Origin: an uncultured Eubacteriales bacterium
Lineage (GTDB): Bacteria; Bacillota; Clostridia; Oscillospirales; Oscillospiraceae
Direction: 5' to 3'
DNA: 64,000 bases
Assembly (NCBI GenBank): GCA_900319635.1
Contig: ONPF01000003.1
Location: 1 to 64,000, forward strand
Part shown: positions 11,330-19,422 of the stretch, piece by piece
Position numbering within the stretch: position 1 is the stretch's first letter
Layout: each line of letters begins with the position of its first letter
Made by a program: the position numbers and the translations under genes
The notes under the pieces: model-generated
What the model saw: the letters and a program-made list of their open reading frames with translations, nothing else
Told to the model about the DNA's origin: nothing
Database searches by the model: none

Positions 11330-14300
11330 ATGAGAAGGACTTGGAAGAACTTCCTGTCCTTGCTGCTGGTCTTTGCGATGATCCTTTCGCTGGGCGCCAC
11401 AGGCTTTGCTCTCGAGGATGAGAATGAAGTCACCGCCCCCGCGGAAGAGACCACCGAGGAGCCCGGCAGCACCGGCGTCGAGCTCTCGTTTGAGAAGGTC
11501 GACAACGACATCATTTCCGAGCGGCTCCCCTTTGCCCATGACCCCATGGAAGAGGAAGAGCCAGTCTACGCCGACGATGAATACGTCCGTGTATCCATCG
11601 TGCTGTTAGGGGCATCCGCCATTGATGCAGGCTATGCGCCTGCCAATGCCGGAGCCTACCGTGCCGGCCTGAAGGCTGACCAGCAGGCTATGGCGCAGAA
11701 GATCTCCGCCGAAGCTCTCGGCGGCGCAGATCTGGATGTTGTCTGGAATCTGACGCTTGGCGCGAACATCATTTCCGCCAACGTGGAGTACGGCCAGATC
11801 GAGGATATCCGCAACGTCATCGGCGTTAAGGATGTCATCATCGAGACCCGCTACTACCCCACGGAGGATGAGGTTCAGAACATCACTGCCACCGAGATGA
11901 CCGGCGCCACGGAAGCCTGGAATCTGGGCTACACCGGCGCAGGCAGCAAAATCGCAATCGTCGATACCGGCCTGGACATCGATCACCAGTCCTTCGACGA
12001 GGGCGCTTTTGAGTATGCCATCGACGAGCTGAACGAGACCCGCGAGACCCCGGTCGTCCTCATGACCGAGGACGATGTGGCCGCCGTGTGGGATCAGCTG
12101 AACGCGGCTTCCTTTATCGGCAGCTATGACGGTGTGTACCGTGGTGCGAAGGTCCCCTTCGGTGTCAACTACGTTGATCAGGATCTGGATATCACCCACA
12201 TCAACGACACCCAGGGCGAGCACGGCTCTCACGTGGCCGGCATCGCCTCTGCCAACAAGTACGTCCCCAGCGGCGACGGCTACGCCCCCGCGCTGGAGGT
12301 CGTGAAGACCCAGGGCGAAGCTCCTGACGCTCAGCTGCTGATCATGAAGGTGTTCGGCAAGGGCGGCGGTGCTTACGATTCCGACTACATGGCCGCCATC
12401 GAAGACGCCATGACCCTGGGCTGCGACACGGTGAACCTGTCTCTGGGCTCCTCTGTCGCCGGCTACACCACCAACAACACCTACCTTGAGACCCTGGACA
12501 AGCTGACCCAGTTCGGCCTTGTCTGGGCCAACTCCGCCGGCAACAACTACAGCTGGACGCACTTCTCCACCGGCGACCACTACCTGTATGCCGACGACGT
12601 GAACTATCAGACCGGCGGCTCTCCCGCTACCTACCACAACACCCTGTCCGTGGCTTCCGTGGACAACAAGGGCTCCGTCGGCTACACGCTTGAGGCCAGC
12701 GACGGTACCCAGATCGCCTACTCCGAGACCAGCGGCTACGGCAACGAGCCGATCCGGAACATTGCGGGCGAGTACACCTACATCATGATCACCCGCGCCG
12801 GTTCCGAAGAGGAAGACTTTGGTGCTCTGGGCTCTGAGATCCTGGAGGGCAAGGTCGCTGTCGCGTGGCGCGGCGGTTCCTCCTTCTATGTGAAGGCCAA
12901 CGCTGCTGTTGCCAACGGCGCGGTTGCCACAGTTGTGGCCAACAACCAGGCCGGTATCATCAACATGAACCTGACCGGCTACTCCTACACCGCTCCGGCT
13001 GTCTCCATCACCCAGAACGATGGCTATCTGCTGATGAATCTGGGCGAGGTGAAGGAGGCCAACGGCGTCACCTACATCGAGGGCACCCTCACCATCGGTG
13101 CTGAGCTCAGCGCCACCAACGTCGGCACGCCCACCAGCGAGTTCCAGACCATGAGCTCCTTCAGCTCCTGGGGCGGCAACGGCGGCCTGACCATGAAGCC
13201 CGAGATCACCGCGCCCGGCGGCAACATCTGGTCCGTCTGGGGCGCCAATAACGGCTCCAGCAGCCCCACCGCTTCTCATACGGACTATGAGATCATGTCC
13301 GGTACCTCCATGGCCTCTCCTCAGGTGGCTGGCGTCACTGCCGTTTTGAAGCAGTACATCCGCGAGACCAACCTGATGGAGAAGTTCCCCGGACTGACCG
13401 AGCGTGCGGTTGCGCAGTCTCTGCTGATGTCCACCGCTATGCCTCTGCGTGAGTCCGCTACGGGCAACTACTGGTCCATCATGAAGCAGGGCGCCGGCCT
13501 TGTGGACGTGAACGCGGCCATCACTGCCCGCTCCCTGATTCAGATCGTTGGCCTGCCCGCCACCGCTCCCGAATCTGCTTACGCCTCCATTGCCGACGGC
13601 AAGGTGAAGGTCGAGGCCGGCGAAGTGTACAACTACGTGTACACCGCCTTTACCGTGACCAACTTCTCCGAGGAGGACATGTCCCTGTATCTGAACGGTG
13701 ACTTCTTCACCCAGTGGATCAAGGACGAGAGCTTCCGTACCGAGTACACCCTGCCCGTCTTTGCGCACATCAACTGGACGGTCAACGGCGAGGACTACAA
13801 GCCCGCTGATCTGGCTCTGGACTTCAACGGCGACGGCGTCTCCAACGGCCTGGATGCCCAGCGCCTCCTGGATTGGTGCGCTGACGACACCGTTGAGATC
13901 TACAACCTGGAGTATGCCGACCTGGACGGCGACGGCAATGTGGATACGGCCGACGCCAAGATCGCTTTCGAGACGCTGAACGGCGCCGCCCTGGAGCTGG
14001 CTGCCGGTGAGACCGCGCTCATCACCGCCGGCATCAGCTACGACCTGGGCTCCTATGATGCGTTCAACGGCAACTACATCGAGGGCTTCCTGTTCGTCCG
14101 CGAGGGCGACACCAACGACGGCGCCCTGGGTGTGACCCACTCCATCCCCGTCTTCGGCTTCAACGGCAAGTTCTCCGACGCCACCATGTTCGACCGTGGC
14201 TCCCGTCTGGAGTACATGTATGAGTTTGGCGACGCCGAGATGTGGGCTCCTTACATGTATTACGCCGATCCCTCTCAGGGCGGTCTCGGTGAGGACGCTC

Positions 14301-17300
14301 TGAACGTCGAGACCTTCCTGGTGCAGTATGCCGGCGACAGCGATGCATACTTCTTCGGCGGCAACCCGATGATCGACGACGAAAGCTACCATCCCGAGCG
14401 CAACGCTCTGAATGCCGGCGACGTGCTGGCTGGCGTCCGCTACACGCAGATCCGCAACGCCGGCGCCTCCCGCTTCTTCGTCACCGACAAGTACGATCGC
14501 ACGGTGCCCGGTACGGAGCTTGTGGGCGGCCCCTCCTATGCTGCCTACTACTACCAGAACCAGAGCACCTGGCAGCAGACCACTACGACCTCCGGCTTCA
14601 ATTACATCCCCCGCAACGTGAAGGAAGGCGATGAGCTGACCGCCCACTTCCAGCTGGCGCTGGAGTACTATGTGAATTCCGACGGTTCCGTCCGTTGGGA
14701 GGATCTGGGCAAGGGCAGCGAGCTGTCGATCCCCTTCGTGATCGATAACACCGCCCCCGACATCGTGAAGGTGTACCGCAACACCACCGAGGAGCCCGGT
14801 GAGGATGACTTTGAGCTGCCCGTCAACGGCACTGTGGCGCAGCCCAATGACGATGAGACTCCGATCATTACCGATCCCGATCCCGAGCCCACGGAAGAGC
14901 CTGTTGAGGAAGAAGAGGCTGCCACGGATACTCTGGAGATCATCACCCACGATAACCAGTACATCGCGGCTGTCGCCGTCTTCACCGACGAAGGCGAGCT
15001 GCTGGATGCCAAGGGCGCTGTGGAAGACACCATCCGCGGCAAGGAAGTGTACTACAGCTTCGACCTGAAGGAGATCTTCGGCGAAGAGGAAGTGCACCCC
15101 TACCTGCTGGTTCAGGTGTATGACTACGCCGCCAACCTCTCCACCTACAAGGTCAACTTTGTGGACGATCTGGAGACCGCTGAGGTCGAGTCCGTCACCG
15201 TCGATCCCGCCGAGGCGATCATCATCGGCACCGGCACCATCCGCCTGTCCGCCGACGTGCGGCCTTGGGGCATTGACGACGCGGTCGAATGGACCTCTTC
15301 CGACGAGACCGTCGCTGTGGTTGATGACAAGGGCGTTGTCACCGGCGTAGCCGAGGGCACTGCCACCATCACCGCTACCTCTCTGCTGGATCCCACCAAG
15401 TCCGGCACCTGCGAGGTCACCGTCAAGTTCATTGACAAGCCTCTGAGCGGTATCGTGTGGGATGAGAACGGTGAAGTCTGGTTCGCTGACTTCAACCTGA
15501 ACTCCCTGCCCGAGTACAGCAAGCTGAACGCCTCCAATCTGCGTCTGCAGCTGAGCTCTGCGGCGTATGACGAAAACGGTGTCCTGTACGCTGCTGACCT
15601 TGACTCCAGCGATCTGGTCTCCACGCTGTACACCGTGAACACGGCTGACTGGTCCGTTGAGCCCATCGGCGCTTCCTCGATCGGCTACATGGATCTGTGC
15701 CAGTCTCCCAGCCTTGGCAGCAACCATATGCTGGCTGTCTACGGGCCTTACGTGGTCATCGTGAACAAGGAGACCGGCGATTACGATGGCGTCTTCAACC
15801 TGGCCTCCTCCACCGGCAACCAGCCGCTGGTCGGCATTGCCTACGAGGAGCAGTTCAATCATCCCTCTTACGGCAACACCGACTGGGTCTTCCTGCTGGA
15901 TAAGGCCGGCAACATCTACAGCACCGGCTTCCTGCCCTATGGCGGCAGCTACACCCGCTTCGGCGTCAGCAAGATCGGCCAGATCGGCGCCGGCGTTGAT
16001 CTGGACTACTGGCAGTCCCTGTACTATGACGGTGACAGCCTGTTCTGGAGCCGCTTCAACATGGCCTCCAACAAGGTCGAGATCGTCATGGTCGACCACC
16101 TGTACACCGATGGCAGCATCTACACCGTTGGCGGCTTTGCTGACGGCGTGTGGCCTGTCGGCGGCATCTTCGAGAACGGTTTGAACCCGTACTTCGGACC
16201 TGTCGAGCCCAATGACCACAGCGATGCGGTTCTGGATCCCAATGCGGAATTCCTGGTTCGCATCCCCGGCACTGGGCCTGATGCAGAGATCAACGAAGAA
16301 GAGCCCGTTGAGGAGCCTGTTGTGGACGAAGAGCCCGTTGAGGAGCCCGTTCCCAGCGAGGAGCCTGTGGGCGGCGGTCTGGACTTCGCCCGCGTGCAGC
16401 TGCCCGGCGACGCCGAGCAGGAGAAGGTGGAGACCGAGGTCGTGGTCTACATCACCGCGGACGAGCTCATGTACAATGGCAAGATCGAGATCAACTTCGA
16501 TCCCACTACCGTGAAGCTGATTGAGGCCATCCCCGCTGCACAGTACACCGCTGTTCTGGATCGCACCGACGATCTGGGCCGCTATGTCCTGGCCTGGGTT
16601 GACCTGAACGGCATTGAGACCGACGGCGTCATCCTGACCCTGAAGTTCACCACCGACAGCGTCGGCACCGTCACCATTACCACGCATGAAGAGAACTTCA
16701 AGGACAGCGACGTCGAGGAGGCCAACCTGCCTCGCGAGGAGCTGGTCTTCCTGGGCTCCACCTCTATCCCCGAGGATCATGAGCATACCTACGAGCTGAC
16801 CCACTGGAACTGGGCTGAGGACTTCAGCGCTGCTGCCGCCGTGTTTGCCTGCCCGCAGGACGGCGCTTCCAAGAGCTACGAGGCTGTTGTGACCAGCGAG
16901 ACCACCGATCCCACCTGCACCGAAGCCGGCAAGATCGTCTACACCGCCACTGTTGAGGTGGACGGCGAGACCTACACCGACGTCAAGGAAGTGGAGATCG
17001 AGGCTCTGGGCCACGAGTATGGCAAGCCCACCTGGACCTGGACCGAGGACTTCACCGCCACCGCCACCTTCGCCTGCGTCCGCGGCGATGATGAGCAGGT
17101 CGTGGAGGCCACTGTGACCAGCGAGACCACCGAGCCCACCTGCGAGGAAGCCGGCGAGACCGTCTACACCGCGACTGTGGAGTTCGAGGGCGAGACCTAC
17201 ACCGATACCAAGACCGCTCCCATTGAGGCCCTTGGCCACGAGTGGGGCGAGCCCACCTGGACCTGGGAAGGCTACACCGCTGCGACCGCGGAGTTCGTCT

Positions 17301-18319
17301 GCGCCCGCAACGAGGAGCACACCACCACCGTCGAGGCTGAGATCGCTTCTGTGACCAACGAGGACAACACCATCACCTTCACTGCCACGGTTGAGCTGGA
17401 AGGCGAGACCTACACCGATGAGAAGACCGCTCCTGTCGGCGCCAACGTCTACGGCAGCACCCTGGTCATCGGCGAGAAGTTCGCCGCCAAGGGCTACCTG
17501 TTCCTGGCTCCCGAGGTTCTGGCCGACACGGACGCTTACGCGACCGTCAACGGCGCCAAGGTCCTGGTGAAGGACGCCGGCAAGCTGAAGGTCAGCGGCA
17601 AGTATGCCTACAGCTTCGACTTCAACCTCGGTCCCAAGATGTTCAACGACGAGATCGTCATCAAGCTCTATAACGGCGAGGATGAAGAGCTCGTGATCCT
17701 GGACAAGGACGGCAACTACCTGCCTGACGGCTTCGTGTTTACCGGCCAGGAGTACATCGACAAGGTGATCGCTGCCAACTCCAACGAGAAGCTGGTCAAC
17801 ACCATGATCGCGCTGAACGACATGGGCCACTACGCTCAGGTGTACTACAAGTACAACACCGAGAATATGGCGGAGCTCCTGGGCGACGTCAGCTCTGTCA
17901 CCGAGGAGGATCTGGCCGCCTATGCCGGCAAGGTCATCACGGCTGACGAGACCGTCATCAAGTACGTTGGCTCCACCATGCTGCTGCAGAACGAGATGAA
18001 GATCCGGCAGTACTTCACCCTGGGCGAGGGCGTTGAGCTGAGTGATCTGACCTTCAAGATCAACGGCAGCAAGGTGACCGCAGTCGAAAAGAACGGCATG
18101 GTTTTCATCGAGAGCAAGAACGTTCCCGCCAAGAACCTGGATGTTGCCTACAAGTTTGTTGTCACCGACAGCACCGGCGCCGTGGTTTACAGCGGCGAGT
18201 ACAGCGCGTTCAGCTACGTTCTCAGCACCTTGAAGAACAGCAGCGATGCTGACCTGGCCAACCTGGTCAAGTCCATGGTGCTGTACAACCAGGCTGCGAA
18301 GATCTATTTTGCCAAGTAA
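11330..18319 (+). CDS. Giant secreted S8 subtilisin-like protease with dockerin-, Big2- and cohesin-like modules
   Basis: 2329 aa, with signal peptide MRRTWKNFLSLLLVFAMILS. In order: acidic linker; I9-type propeptide (about 83-180); S8 catalytic domain with Asp212 (IVDTGLD), His298 (HGSHVAGI) and Ser660 (SGTSMASPQ); a PA-like insert (about 478-577); a beta-sandwich with two EF-hand-like loops, FNGDGVSNGLDAQ and LDGDGNVDTADA (about 829-884, dockerin-like); a Big2 domain (about 1285-1369); a region of unclear fold; an EEPVEEPV linker (about 1656-1683); a cohesin-like beta domain (about 1683-1810); three tandem 75-aa ALGHxW repeats (about 1819-2035); and an unassigned C-terminal domain. No LPxTG or SLH anchor is seen. 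AAGGAGGAAAG precedes the ATG at 11330. It probably degrades extracellular or dietary protein; the architecture resembles lactocepin-type proteases. Confidence 0.93.
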   Translation: MRRTWKNFLSLLLVFAMILSLGATGFALEDENEVTAPAEETTEEPGSTGVELSFEKVDNDIISERLPFAHDPMEEEEPVYADDEYVRVSIVLLGASAIDAGYAPANAGAYRAGLKADQQAMAQKISAEALGGADLDVVWNLTLGANIISANVEYGQIEDIRNVIGVKDVIIETRYYPTEDEVQNITATEMTGATEAWNLGYTGAGSKIAIVDTGLDIDHQSFDEGAFEYAIDELNETRETPVVLMTEDDVAAVWDQLNAASFIGSYDGVYRGAKVPFGVNYVDQDLDITHINDTQGEHGSHVAGIASANKYVPSGDGYAPALEVVKTQGEAPDAQLLIMKVFGKGGGAYDSDYMAAIEDAMTLGCDTVNLSLGSSVAGYTTNNTYLETLDKLTQFGLVWANSAGNNYSWTHFSTGDHYLYADDVNYQTGGSPATYHNTLSVASVDNKGSVGYTLEASDGTQIAYSETSGYGNEPIRNIAGEYTYIMITRAGSEEEDFGALGSEILEGKVAVAWRGGSSFYVKANAAVANGAVATVVANNQAGIINMNLTGYSYTAPAVSITQNDGYLLMNLGEVKEANGVTYIEGTLTIGAELSATNVGTPTSEFQTMSSFSSWGGNGGLTMKPEITAPGGNIWSVWGANNGSSSPTASHTDYEIMSGTSMASPQVAGVTAVLKQYIRETNLMEKFPGLTERAVAQSLLMSTAMPLRESATGNYWSIMKQGAGLVDVNAAITARSLIQIVGLPATAPESAYASIADGKVKVEAGEVYNYVYTAFTVTNFSEEDMSLYLNGDFFTQWIKDESFRTEYTLPVFAHINWTVNGEDYKPADLALDFNGDGVSNGLDAQRLLDWCADDTVEIYNLEYADLDGDGNVDTADAKIAFETLNGAALELAAGETALITAGISYDLGSYDAFNGNYIEGFLFVREGDTNDGALGVTHSIPVFGFNGKFSDATMFDRGSRLEYMYEFGDAEMWAPYMYYADPSQGGLGEDALNVETFLVQYAGDSDAYFFGGNPMIDDESYHPERNALNAGDVLAGVRYTQIRNAGASRFFVTDKYDRTVPGTELVGGPSYAAYYYQNQSTWQQTTTTSGFNYIPRNVKEGDELTAHFQLALEYYVNSDGSVRWEDLGKGSELSIPFVIDNTAPDIVKVYRNTTEEPGEDDFELPVNGTVAQPNDDETPIITDPDPEPTEEPVEEEEAATDTLEIITHDNQYIAAVAVFTDEGELLDAKGAVEDTIRGKEVYYSFDLKEIFGEEEVHPYLLVQVYDYAANLSTYKVNFVDDLETAEVESVTVDPAEAIIIGTGTIRLSADVRPWGIDDAVEWTSSDETVAVVDDKGVVTGVAEGTATITATSLLDPTKSGTCEVTVKFIDKPLSGIVWDENGEVWFADFNLNSLPEYSKLNASNLRLQLSSAAYDENGVLYAADLDSSDLVSTLYTVNTADWSVEPIGASSIGYMDLCQSPSLGSNHMLAVYGPYVVIVNKETGDYDGVFNLASSTGNQPLVGIAYEEQFNHPSYGNTDWVFLLDKAGNIYSTGFLPYGGSYTRFGVSKIGQIGAGVDLDYWQSLYYDGDSLFWSRFNMASNKVEIVMVDHLYTDGSIYTVGGFADGVWPVGGIFENGLNPYFGPVEPNDHSDAVLDPNAEFLVRIPGTGPDAEINEEEPVEEPVVDEEPVEEPVPSEEPVGGGLDFARVQLPGDAEQEKVETEVVVYITADELMYNGKIEINFDPTTVKLIEAIPAAQYTAVLDRTDDLGRYVLAWVDLNGIETDGVILTLKFTTDSVGTVTITTHEENFKDSDVEEANLPREELVFLGSTSIPEDHEHTYELTHWNWAEDFSAAAAVFACPQDGASKSYEAVVTSETTDPTCTEAGKIVYTATVEVDGETYTDVKEVEIEALGHEYGKPTWTWTEDFTATATFACVRGDDEQVVEATVTSETTEPTCEEAGETVYTATVEFEGETYTDTKTAPIEALGHEWGEPTWTWEGYTAATAEFVCARNEEHTTTVEAEIASVTNEDNTITFTATVELEGETYTDEKTAPVGANVYGSTLVIGEKFAAKGYLFLAPEVLADTDAYATVNGAKVLVKDAGKLKVSGKYAYSFDFNLGPKMFNDEIVIKLYNGEDEELVILDKDGNYLPDGFVFTGQEYIDKVIAANSNEKLVNTMIALNDMGHYAQVYYKYNTENMAELLGDVSSVTEEDLAAYAGKVITADETVIKYVGSTMLLQNEMKIRQYFTLGEGVELSDLTFKINGSKVTAVEKNGMVFIESKNVPAKNLDVAYKFVVTDSTGAVVYSGEYSAFSYVLSTLKNSSDADLANLVKSMVLYNQAAKIYFAK

Positions 18320-18334
18320 GAGAGGAATTCTGGC

Positions 18335-18688
18335 ATGAAACGCAGGAATCTTTGGATCCTGCTGGCAGCCCTGGCAGTGGTGGGCATCGTGGTGCTCGCC
18401 CTGCTGGGACTCCTGGGCGGGAAAGAAGACGCGAAACCCGTTGATGGGGATACGAAAGAGGAAGCGGAAACGGTTGACGTTACCGCTACACCGGAACCCA
18501 CACCTGTGGATCCGGAGCTTCCGATGGACGAATCTCCGCTGGCACCGGTCGAGGAGGGCTCTGAGGAAGAGTCCGGCGAGAACGGCGACCAAGGGGAGGA
18601 GCCCGTTCCCGGCAACGAGGATCCGGCGGAAACGACGAATCCCGAGGAAGATTCCCGGGATGAGGATGAGCTTCCGATTCTTCCCTGA
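18335..18688 (+). CDS. Membrane-anchored acidic protein with C-terminal DELPILP tail
   Basis: 117 aa: basic N-terminus MKRRN, one membrane helix (about residues 6-28, WILLAALAVVGIVVLALLGL), then an acidic, Pro/Glu/Thr-rich unstructured tail ending in EDELPILP. By the positive-inside rule the tail faces outward. It starts 15 nt after the subtilase stop, with AGAGGAA upstream, so it is translated from the same transcript. The last residues match those of the 39-aa and 73-aa proteins downstream (DELPIMP, DELPIMTP), and its N-terminal third resembles that of the 73-aa protein. I do not recognise a described family. It may be an accessory or substrate of the protease. Confidence 0.8.
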   Translation: MKRRNLWILLAALAVVGIVVLALLGLLGGKEDAKPVDGDTKEEAETVDVTATPEPTPVDPELPMDESPLAPVEEGSEEESGENGDQGEEPVPGNEDPAETTNPEEDSRDEDELPILP

Positions 18689-18727
18689 CCCGGCACGGTT
18701 CAAACCCTCAGCAGACAAATTAGCAGG

Positions 18728-18760
18728 AACCTTCCGGCTGCAAAGCCGGGAGGTTTTCTG
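18728..18760 (+). terminator. Terminator of the protease transcription unit
   Basis: A 12-bp stem with one G-U pair (18728-18739 with 18744-18755, GCAA loop) is followed by TTCTG. It separates the protease unit from the small-peptide unit. Confidence 0.65.
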
Positions 18761-18839
18761 CGAAAAAAAGAATTTTCGTTGTCATAAAAAAGTTTACATA
18801 AAAAATACAAGAAATGAAAGAAATGTCATCTTCTTGTAC

Positions 18840-18868
18840 TTGACAAGGAAAACAAACTGGTGTATATT
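18840..18868 (+). promoter_or_regulatory. Strong promoter of the small-peptide unit
   Basis: TTGACA (18840-18845), 17 bp, TATATT (18863-18868), in an AT-rich stretch that contrasts with the surrounding GC-rich DNA. The expected leader is about 110 nt. Confidence 0.85.
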
Positions 18869-18922
18869 TCAACATGTAGCATAGCTTGTATCGTTATGTC
18901 TACCGTAAAAGTTAGGAGTTTT

Positions 18923-18958
18923 CGCTTCGCTCTCCCTTCCGGAACGTGAGGCGAAGCG
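18923..18958 (+). other. Hairpin in the leader of the 39-aa peptide mRNA
   Basis: CGCTTCGC (18923-18930) pairs perfectly with GCGAAGCG (18951-18958); the 20-nt loop contains a smaller TTCCGGAA palindrome. It lies between the promoter and the GGAGGA ribosome site and has no T-run. It is more likely a stabilising or regulatory 5' structure than a terminator. Confidence 0.6.
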
Positions 18959-18987
18959 TATTTGGCAGGAAAGTGGAGGAACGCAAA

Positions 18988-19107
18988 ATGAAGAAGACTT
19001 ACGAGATCCCTGAGCTGAAGATCGCTCTTCTCGCGAAGACCGACATCATCGTCACCAGCGACAATGCCCCCGGCGGAGACGATGACGAGCTCCCCATCAT
19101 GCCCTGA
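18988..19107 (+). CDS. 39-aa leaderless peptide with C-terminal DELPIMP tail
   Basis: The peptide begins MKKTYEIPELKIALLAKTD, continues IIVTSDNAPGG and ends DDDELPIMP. It has no signal peptide and no membrane helix. A GTGGAGGAA ribosome site is well placed, a near-consensus promoter lies 120 bp upstream, and codon use is that of well-expressed genes, so it is very likely real. It lacks the Cys/Ser/Thr-rich core expected of a lanthipeptide, and no maturation enzyme is adjacent. The C-terminal motif is shared with the proteins on either side, which suggests a common recognition or processing step. Function unknown. Confidence 0.8.
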   Translation: MKKTYEIPELKIALLAKTDIIVTSDNAPGGDDDELPIMP

Positions 19108-19109
19108 GC

Positions 19110-19331
19110 GTGAAGAAGTATCGCTGGCTTCTGCTGGCTCTCATTGCAGTAGTGGCGATCATTCTTATGATCGCCCTGCTGGGAGGGCCGAACGAAGAAA
19201 AAAGTGACAAGAGCGACAGCTATTCGGTTGACGCCGAAGAGCTGAAGGAAGAGAACGAATATGTCCCCAACATCGATCCTAACACGGGAATGGAGTTGGA
19301 GGAAGATGAGCTGCCTATTATGACGCCCTGA
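19110..19331 (+). CDS. Membrane-anchored protein with C-terminal DELPIMTP tail
   Basis: 73 aa from a GTG start 2 nt after the stop of the 39-aa peptide. There is no ribosome site of its own, so translation is probably coupled. A basic N-terminus (KKYR) leads into one membrane helix (WLLLALIAVVAIILMIALLGG) and an acidic tail ending LEEDELPIMTP. It is a shorter paralogue of the 117-aa protein at 18335-18688: the anchor has the same spacing and the tail end is the same. Predicted topology is N-in, tail outside. No known family recognised. Confidence 0.8.
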   Translation: MKKYRWLLLALIAVVAIILMIALLGGPNEEKSDKSDSYSVDAEELKEENEYVPNIDPNTGMELEEDELPIMTP

Positions 19332-19394
19332 GCGTGTCAGGGAACACGGCAGTCTGGTTTTTGCGCCTTAAATTTGAATGTAATTATTTGTATG

Positions 19395-19422
19395 AGCCGC
19401 CCGGTTTCCGGGCGGCTTTTTT
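19395..19422 (+). terminator. Terminator of the small-peptide unit
   Basis: A perfect 10-bp stem AGCCGCCCGG/CCGGGCGGCT with TTT loop is followed by a T-run. Confidence 0.95.

Follow-up and report, generated by a model that had tools for sequence, protein, structure and literature searches.

Gene order ties a RiPP-precursor-like peptide and tailed membrane stalks to a C-terminal module of large secreted proteins in Clostridia

In an uncultured Eubacteriales bacterium, three adjacent small proteins behind the gene of a giant subtilase end in nearly the same residues, which raises the question of what recognises such a tail and why a 39-residue peptide carries it together with two other proteins. 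The window analysed here is the whole stretch of 64,000 nucleotides (positions 1 to 64,000 of contig ONPF01000003.1), and all features described in it lie on the forward (+) strand. As the first-pass annotation had claimed, the frames and their ends are exactly so: the 117-aa, 39-aa and 73-aa products have DELPILP, DELPIMP and DELPIMTP at their C-termini. The preceding gene (11330..18319) encodes a giant secreted S8 subtilase of 2329 aa with PA and Big_2 domains (Pfam: S8 2.6e-39, PA 4.5e-9, Big_2 1.3e-15) and a weak internal dockerin match (Dockerin_1, 22.3 bits against a cut-off of 22.9), and it ends in a C-terminal module (CTM; 17450..18316 by alignment, with a profile match at 17600-18316, E 1.2e-105). 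Behind it comes stalk A (117 aa, 18335..18688), which has an N-terminal membrane helix, an acidic stalk and the tail DELPILP (codons 18665..18685). The 39-aa RiPP-precursor-like peptide (18988..19107; tail codons 19084..19104) is followed by stalk B (73 aa, 19110..19331), whose GTG start lies 2 nt downstream of the 39-mer stop and which has an N-terminal membrane helix, an acidic stalk and, in family alignments, a conserved end IDPxTGxELEEDELPIxTP (DELPIMTP codons 19305..19328). A promoter-like site of the 39-mer's own was found as proposed, near-consensus and sigma-A-like (TTGACA-17-TATATT at 18840..18868, with 11 of 12 consensus bases and a 17-nt spacer). Downstream of it and ahead of the ribosome site, the 5' region of the 39-mer mRNA (18915-18965) shows by eye an inverted repeat, CGCTTCGCTC...GGCGAAGCG. 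A terminator-like hairpin of 11 pairs with a T-run lies past the island (19394..19418), one being found where 1.4 were expected by chance.

Judged from their translations, the 117- and 73-aa proteins are membrane stalks. They had been described as paralogous single-helix proteins; the helix is N-terminal, and BLASTP agrees with the paralogy (53 columns over the membrane-helix region, 40% identity, E 3e-8, the tail lying outside the alignment). A profile of stalk B matched 8 of the 102 genus genomes strongly (E up to 1.1e-19) and 28 of 102 at E<=0.01, those beyond the strong 8 scoring far lower. In these 8 genomes a D-2-hydroxyacid dehydrogenase gene lies beyond the island, and the subtilase precedes the island in seven; the island of G006 is found on two contigs, one with the subtilase and stalk A, the other with the peptide and stalk B. 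The end [DN]ELP[IL] is present in all nine stalk-B proteins, G030 counted, and stalk A, found in 5 genomes, ends in [DN]ELPI-x-P in 5 of 5. In the end common to 48 stalk-B relatives the Pro is invariant and E-L-E-E-D-E-L is at least 90% conserved; the tail is the most conserved part of the protein and the stalk itself is variable. The 16 end residues of the 73-aa family are under purifying selection (pN/pS 0.118/0.673, 9 genomes). Outside the own genome, a search of 400 family genomes with the stalk-B alignment gave weak matches only; the best had E 2.1e-6, and almost all of them fell within long open frames.

Fifteen of the 102 genus genomes have an S8 relative at E<=1e-20, and in the ten with an S8 of at least 63% identity, tailed stalks and/or a peptide of the 39-mer's YxxP type lie behind it. 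All nine stalk-B genomes are among these ten; the tenth, G101, has only the peptide, 16 nt past the S8 gene in place of the stalk. The tail is conserved and linked, as the annotation had supposed, with a tailed stalk behind the S8 gene in 9 of 10 genus genomes that have it (G006 split over two contigs).

The pattern DE[LF]PI-[LVIMF]-[PTAS] has four matches in the own genome, namely the three island tails and one lipoprotein linker, against none in the reversed control, and the island tails are more than chance. As a C-terminal feature the tail holds for the three proteins, but the motif is also internal, in lipoproteins. In 20 genomes, [DN]E[LF]PI gave 64 matches against 13 in the reversed control; read by eye, 28 of the 48 matches of the ten S8-CTM genomes lie in stalks, YxxP peptides or acidic lipoprotein linkers, compared with 0 of 16 in ten comparison genomes. 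For one lipoprotein, the linker contains ELP[IVL] in all 7 orthologs from island genomes (in G006 no ortholog was found) and in none of 7 others, a clade pattern that is confounded by common descent. In two lipoproteins (L181, G036:C15; L224, G040:C66) the ELPI linker is followed by what by eye is a cyclophilin-type prolyl isomerase-like domain.

It might be argued that the tails are alike through the composition bias of acidic, Pro-containing linkers together with recent duplication, with no shared recognition, as the two stalks are paralogous and strong acidity is also seen in the subtilase (net -7 to -36 per 200 residues across positions 1-2200 of the protein). We give this explanation little chance, for it is set against a tail that is conserved while the stalk varies, a 39-mer leader region that is unlike the stalks, the contrast of motif contexts just given, and the return of a shared tail on a Ser-rich stalk in another family (L394, below). 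DDELPI resembles the acidic C-terminus of SSB; this resemblance was given no weight, as the tail on stalks and lipoproteins would face the exterior. One shared recognition partner for the tails is the most economical reading.

The 39-mer (YEIPELKIALLAKTDIIVTS) is not leaderless, contrary to its first description. It has YEIP at residues 5-8, and residues 1-24 agree with the leader region of RiPPs that depend on an RRE, with YxxP and a conserved Ser, closest to that of LPP in the main text of Popov et al. 2026 (PMC13381572). LPP are linear polyphosphorylated peptides, in which LppK phosphorylates Ser3 of the core, and LppS, an SpI-like enzyme, cleaves off the YxxP leader aided by the RRE (PMC13381572). 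Their role is left open there, and a search of that paper's main text for the words surface, membrane protein and Clostridia gave no match. By analogy with the LPP motif given there, the predicted leader covers about residues 1-23 (18988..19056; cut position approximate) with YEIP as its RRE-binding element, and Ser24 (19057..19059), a Ser in 19 of 19 alignment rows, is the predicted counterpart of the phosphorylated Ser3. The Ser stands 16 residues past the Pro, versus 15 in the LPP motif YxxPxVLxHQxIxFETxxS, whose Y-to-S span is 19 (PMC13381572, main text).

A family search found 340 relatives at E<=10, and motif counts were made on the 120 matches listed. Among these, the leader-plus-Ser regex fits 118, with a Y-to-S span of 20 in 106, 19 in 10 and 21 in 2; the other two have the Ser too, at a span of 18. 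Common to the relatives are [YF]xxP, a hydrophobic stretch, D-[VI]-[IV]-x-x-S and an acidic, variable end, the tail being net negative in 117 of the 118 regex-fitting matches listed. The 39-mer leader is under purifying selection (pN/pS 0.103/0.419, 4 genomes) and is kept in six of the eight strong stalk-B genomes, while no peptide of this type was found in the island interval of G100 and G116. These six YxxPEL peptides end in DELPI-x-P in two genomes (own and G006), and in DTLPIQHD in G040; that of G044 has GELPV, and those of G036 (NETPIF) and G021 (FPVDDDL) have no ELP. DELPI plus one to four end residues is found in 10 of 11 close metagenome relatives, and in other genera many YxxP peptides among the matches listed have different tails, some of them Cys-rich. 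In one genus genome (G027; L277, L287, L289) YxxP peptides with Cys-containing tails lie behind CTM genes, so the tail type changes within the genus. Peptides with this kind of leader occur in 93 of 394 sampled genomes of the order. Several named relatives are MAGs, from the omasum of sheep or goat and from elsewhere. On its sequence features, the 39-mer is best called LPP-like and not a proven LPP member.

The annotation had noted no RiPP maturation enzyme nearby; such genes were found about 136 kb off on the same contig (C12) and on contig C32, and in two sister genomes a radical SAM and an RRE adjoin related peptides. The C32 operon contains an HprK-like kinase, an RRE, an SpI-like peptidase and an ABC exporter; near 155-157.6 kb of C12 there are an HprK-like kinase, an RRE, a membrane stalk that lacks the tail, and an NTP transferase. 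Both RREs are discrete and PqqD-like (PF05402: E 7.9e-16 on C32, 1.0e-11 on C12), and no solved structure relative of the own RRE was found at E<=0.01. The HprK-like genes adjoin both RREs and the P-loop is present; the HprK_rel models score 19.6 and 16.3 bits on the C32 kinase against a cut-off of 200. The C32 peptidase matches models for an SpI-like, archaeal-type signal peptidase below their cut-offs (TIGR02228 2.8e-6, 27.3 bits with a cut-off of 51.85; Pfam S26 15.2 bits with a cut-off of 22.9), the exporter matches general, not MsbA-specific, ABC models (PF00664 1e-27, PF00005 9e-24), and the C12 nucleotidyltransferase matches PF14907 at 1.8e-46. By homology, the peptide family and genes for RRE, kinase-like, peptidase-like, exporter and nucleotidyltransferase proteins are thus all in the own genome.

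The RRE is present in 10 of 10 S8-CTM genomes, 12 of 13 other genomes with a CTM or linked peptide, and 5 of 10 comparison genomes. HprK-RRE-ABC also occurs in G006, G021, G030, G036, G044 and G116, with SpI listed in all but G036. In G006 and G040, YxxP peptides with DELPII lie just upstream of a radical SAM gene and an RRE. The radical SAM proteins of G006 and G027 score 115 and 139 bits with a TIGR04463-like model, so far below its cut-off of 525 that they are not of this family; beside the two own RREs, no radical SAM gene was seen in the stretches read. Before the HprK-RRE-stalk-NTase genes of G100 (L351, G100:C1) a 97-aa Gly/Pro-rich frame with a strong ribosome site (375-668) is a possible other precursor.

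A variable core behind a conserved leader and an exporter in the cassette would also suit an ordinary secreted RiPP, such as a pheromone or bacteriocin, with tailed stalks and lipoproteins as mimics, receptors or immunity proteins, and Popov et al. (PMC13381572) describe a patchy pattern of gain and loss of the kind that is typical of biological-conflict genes. DELPI in 10 of 11 close relatives is unlike a diversifying toxin, and the link to large exoproteins also speaks against such a role, which we consider improbable.

The ends of the S8 proteins differ. Nine of the ten close orthologs were aligned (G100 was left out), and all nine end in the CTM. Four more distant orthologs (G122, G023, G019 and G047; L166, L167, L168 and L169) end in a dockerin-like repeat, as do S8 paralogs of the own genome, G036 and G040 (the G040 frame lies at a contig end). 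A secreted cohesin-like gene stands behind the dockerin-ended S8 in these four orthologs and the own paralog; the L166 match is below the Pfam cut-off and the other neighbours were judged by sequence. The dockerin-ended S8 and cohesin-like genes of L166-L169 form an enzyme-scaffold pair for a protease. The own cohesin-like frame (L172, G000:C32, 15543-16730) runs at the contig end into the start of a CTM (profile positions 2-58, E 2e-13), and G040 has a 971-aa frame that contains a complete CTM, overlaps with a cohesin frame (PF00963 2e-7) and is followed 1 nt on by a peptide with NELPII. From these dockerin/cohesin gene arrangements of the S8 relatives, the CTM occupies the place of their docking module or ends a scaffold-like protein.

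The CTM, about 240 residues long, is common to other large secreted proteins, and YxxP peptides often start directly behind it. Its profile matched 29 of 400 family genomes. Of 76 CTM ends, 21 have a YxxP peptide within 450 nt of the gene end by a fixed regex, whereas with this regex the reverse strand gave 0 of 76 and the following 490 nt gave 1 of 76; four more were recognised by eye (L277, L287, L289 and L312), giving 25 of 76. Sixteen of the 21 regex-found peptides start 13-36 nt past the CTM stop. The remaining 51 of 76 ends, the window's own included (peptide at 668 nt), have no YxxP peptide within 450 nt. The count leaves out profile matches ending before position 225, ends with no stop in the locus, duplicates, tails of more than 25 residues and 3 ends behind which less than 150 nt of sequence remained. 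The own genome has a further CTM protein (L269, G000:C26:11093-11809), with no YxxP peptide within 450 nt. At the peptide loci L176, L178, L234 and L239 there is no CTM gene within 900 nt upstream, and L177 is too near a contig end to tell. In an order-wide sample, the longest upstream frame has a CTM match for 6 of 28 peptide frames, a count that omits the window and L391, where the CTM gene is more distant; at three loci the regex yielded no peptide. In G315 a CTM protein carries a tail itself, ending in EEIELPILEFT.

These data bear on the suggestion that the neighbouring protease is the tail partner, with the tail as ligand, inhibitor or cleavage site of the S8 domain itself. The tailed stalk behind the S8 gene in 9 of 10 genomes agrees with it, but the suggestion is weakened because the same peptide class lies behind CTM proteins that match no protease, namely a 2621-aa Cna_B/beta-helix protein without an S8 match in Pfam at E<=0.001, and another cut by the locus edge, whose last 488 residues have no Pfam match. 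A peptide also follows the 1220-aa CTM protein of L394 (the Pfam scan covered the other two proteins), and behind the dockerin-ended S8 orthologs are cohesin-like genes and no tailed proteins. The protease itself is accordingly an unlikely partner, and by sequence comparison the element linked to tails and peptides is the CTM and not the protease domain. Gene order shows stalks, YxxP peptides and CTM proteins to be parts of a single system.

The CTM resembles little that is known. Pfam gave matches of single members at E 0.013 or worse, none of them dockerin; a PDB sequence search with the CTM gave two chance matches (E 0.49); and with its structure model (pLDDT 76, pTM 0.58) Foldseek returned partial Ig-like fits with TM about 0.2 and no clear fold relative. 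Its net charge is -7 to -16 in five orthologs, the last 110 residues having -4 to +4, and there are conserved K/R residues in its second half.

The most complete arrangement was found on a contig from another family of the order (L394, G747:C143, 336-12149), on which all genes lie on one strand. It starts with a 1220-aa secreted CTM protein (E 2.1e-22), a Ser-rich membrane stalk ending in IELPIITV and two YxxP peptides (IELPIIPVK and NELPVIKD), and continues with HprK, radical SAM, RRE, SpI-like peptidase, ABC exporter, a 314-aa membrane protein and an NTP transferase-like protein. Identity to the own genome is 52% for HprK (C32 copy), 56% for RRE, 54% for ABC, 35% for SpI and 23% for NTase, and the window looks like this system with the enzymes encoded apart. 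With the CTM protein, tailed stalk, two YxxP peptides and RiPP cassette with radical SAM together, L394 is the best candidate locus. When the last 14 residues of a peptide were compared with those of same-strand neighbours, a score of at least 30 was reached by 3 of 29 (the window, L368 and L391, which lies in L394), compared with 4 of 841 in the null; the 29 frames include at least one spurious frame (L377, + strand). In L368/L395 (G746:C43) a secreted 1581-aa protein ends in NDGSGWT, and 263 nt on a YxxP peptide ends in IDGGGWT, which makes a common tail of another sequence.

As the best explanation we propose that the 39-mer, which matches an LPP-type precursor, is predicted to be bound by the RRE, phosphorylated at Ser24, trimmed and exported, and then to dock with its tail on the subtilase CTM as the stalk tails would; we put the chance of this whole course at about even. 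The RRE is predicted to bind through the YxxP leader, and kinase, peptidase and exporter would act in trans. Ser24 would likely be phosphorylated and the leader removed as in the enzyme set of Popov et al. (PMC13381572). Since stalks and lipoproteins would display the tail on the outer side of the membrane, it is probably read there. That the CTM is its reader is the least certain step; stalks might then keep CTM proteins on the membrane, with the tailored peptide as a possible second carrier of the same epitope, either a phosphate-joined anchor on surface glycan or a soluble competitor that releases the protein. From the kinase and the NTP transferase, a link between peptide and surface glycan is plausible, and a soluble competitor is equally allowed. 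More generally, the RiPP core might be a docking barcode, so that the phosphorylated peptide and the stalks carry the same tail, read by the CTM of giant exoproteins; lineages would keep the principle and change the barcode, with DELPI in this genus, IELPII in G747 and perhaps DG-x-GWT in G746. We put this forward tentatively, as a possibility that is doubtful at present.

Counting against docking are the many CTM genes that have no peptide, the varied tails, RREs in half of the comparison genomes and the net acidity of the CTM itself, for which an acidic tail is an awkward ligand. The same acidity, the motif in lipoprotein linkers (the cyclophilin-like one included) and the YxxP peptides without an upstream CTM gene would fit a tail read by a partner other than the CTM, such as a surface glycan enzyme, a lipoprotein receptor or the exporter, with CTM, stalk and peptide co-regulated in a surface programme but not in direct contact. 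We regard this as rather unlikely, given against it the 16 of 21 linked peptides that begin 13-36 nt past the CTM stop and the CTM protein of G315 that bears the tail in cis.

With respect to significance, gene order ties peptides with an LPP-like leader to large secreted proteins through one CTM, and to stalks that repeat the peptide tail. If docking is true, such RiPPs would be part of surface architecture rather than chemical warfare, and a function would be offered for an unannotated module that ends many large clostridial secreted proteins. If the barcode reading is true as well, the cell would attach or release its surface machines through a code that is ribosomally made and tailored by enzymes, in addition to sortases and cohesin-dockerin pairs, and LPP-type RiPPs would have a first concrete role. 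None of the papers listed by our literature searches deals with the CTM, the shared tails, or a pairing of RiPP tail, stalks and C-terminal module.

Compared with known systems, the peptide is less isolated than it had seemed, and the statement that no described system fits has to be given up, as LPP RiPPs in the main text of PMC13381572 fit it in most points. Alike are the YxxP leader, the conserved Ser near the leader end and the variable C-terminus; the own genome also has a discrete RRE, an ABC exporter and an NTP transferase, besides candidates for the HprK-like kinase and the SpI-like peptidase that score below the cut-offs of the named models. Unlike LPP as described there, the precursor lies outside the cluster in the own genome, apart from the C32 and C12 cassettes (in L394 it is inside), the VL, HQ and FET positions of VLxHQ/FET are not kept in the 39-mer, several sister clusters contain radical SAM, and the system is linked to CTM exoproteins with the core tail repeated on stalks and lipoproteins. 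Paeninodin-type lasso peptides also have an RRE-bound [Y/W]xxP leader, an HprK kinase and an NTP transferase (PMC13381572, main text), but the tails here have no fixed ring position. No macrolactam cyclase or B2 peptidase was recognised in the own cassettes or the eleven genes of L394 (by gene order, BLASTP against the own cassette and eye, without a lasso HMM), and a lasso peptide is not favoured, since no cyclase was recognised and the acidic tail residues keep no ring position. Radical SAM/SPASM RiPP clusters of TIGR04463-like type share the adjacent YxxP peptide, radical SAM and RRE of G006 and G040, and differ in that the radical SAM proteins here score far below the cut-off and the stretches read next to the two own RREs showed none. 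LPXTG sortase anchoring likewise uses a short C-terminal motif with LP on surface proteins; here there is no LPXTG and the anchor helix is N-terminal, and a sortase-like signal was rejected as the proteins end at the tail with nothing beyond it. With cohesin-dockerin the system would share non-covalent module pairing at the end of giant exoproteins, and related S8 proteins do have a C-terminal dockerin-like repeat and a cohesin-like next gene; in contrast, the CTM has no dockerin or cohesin match, and its candidate partners are short linear tails.
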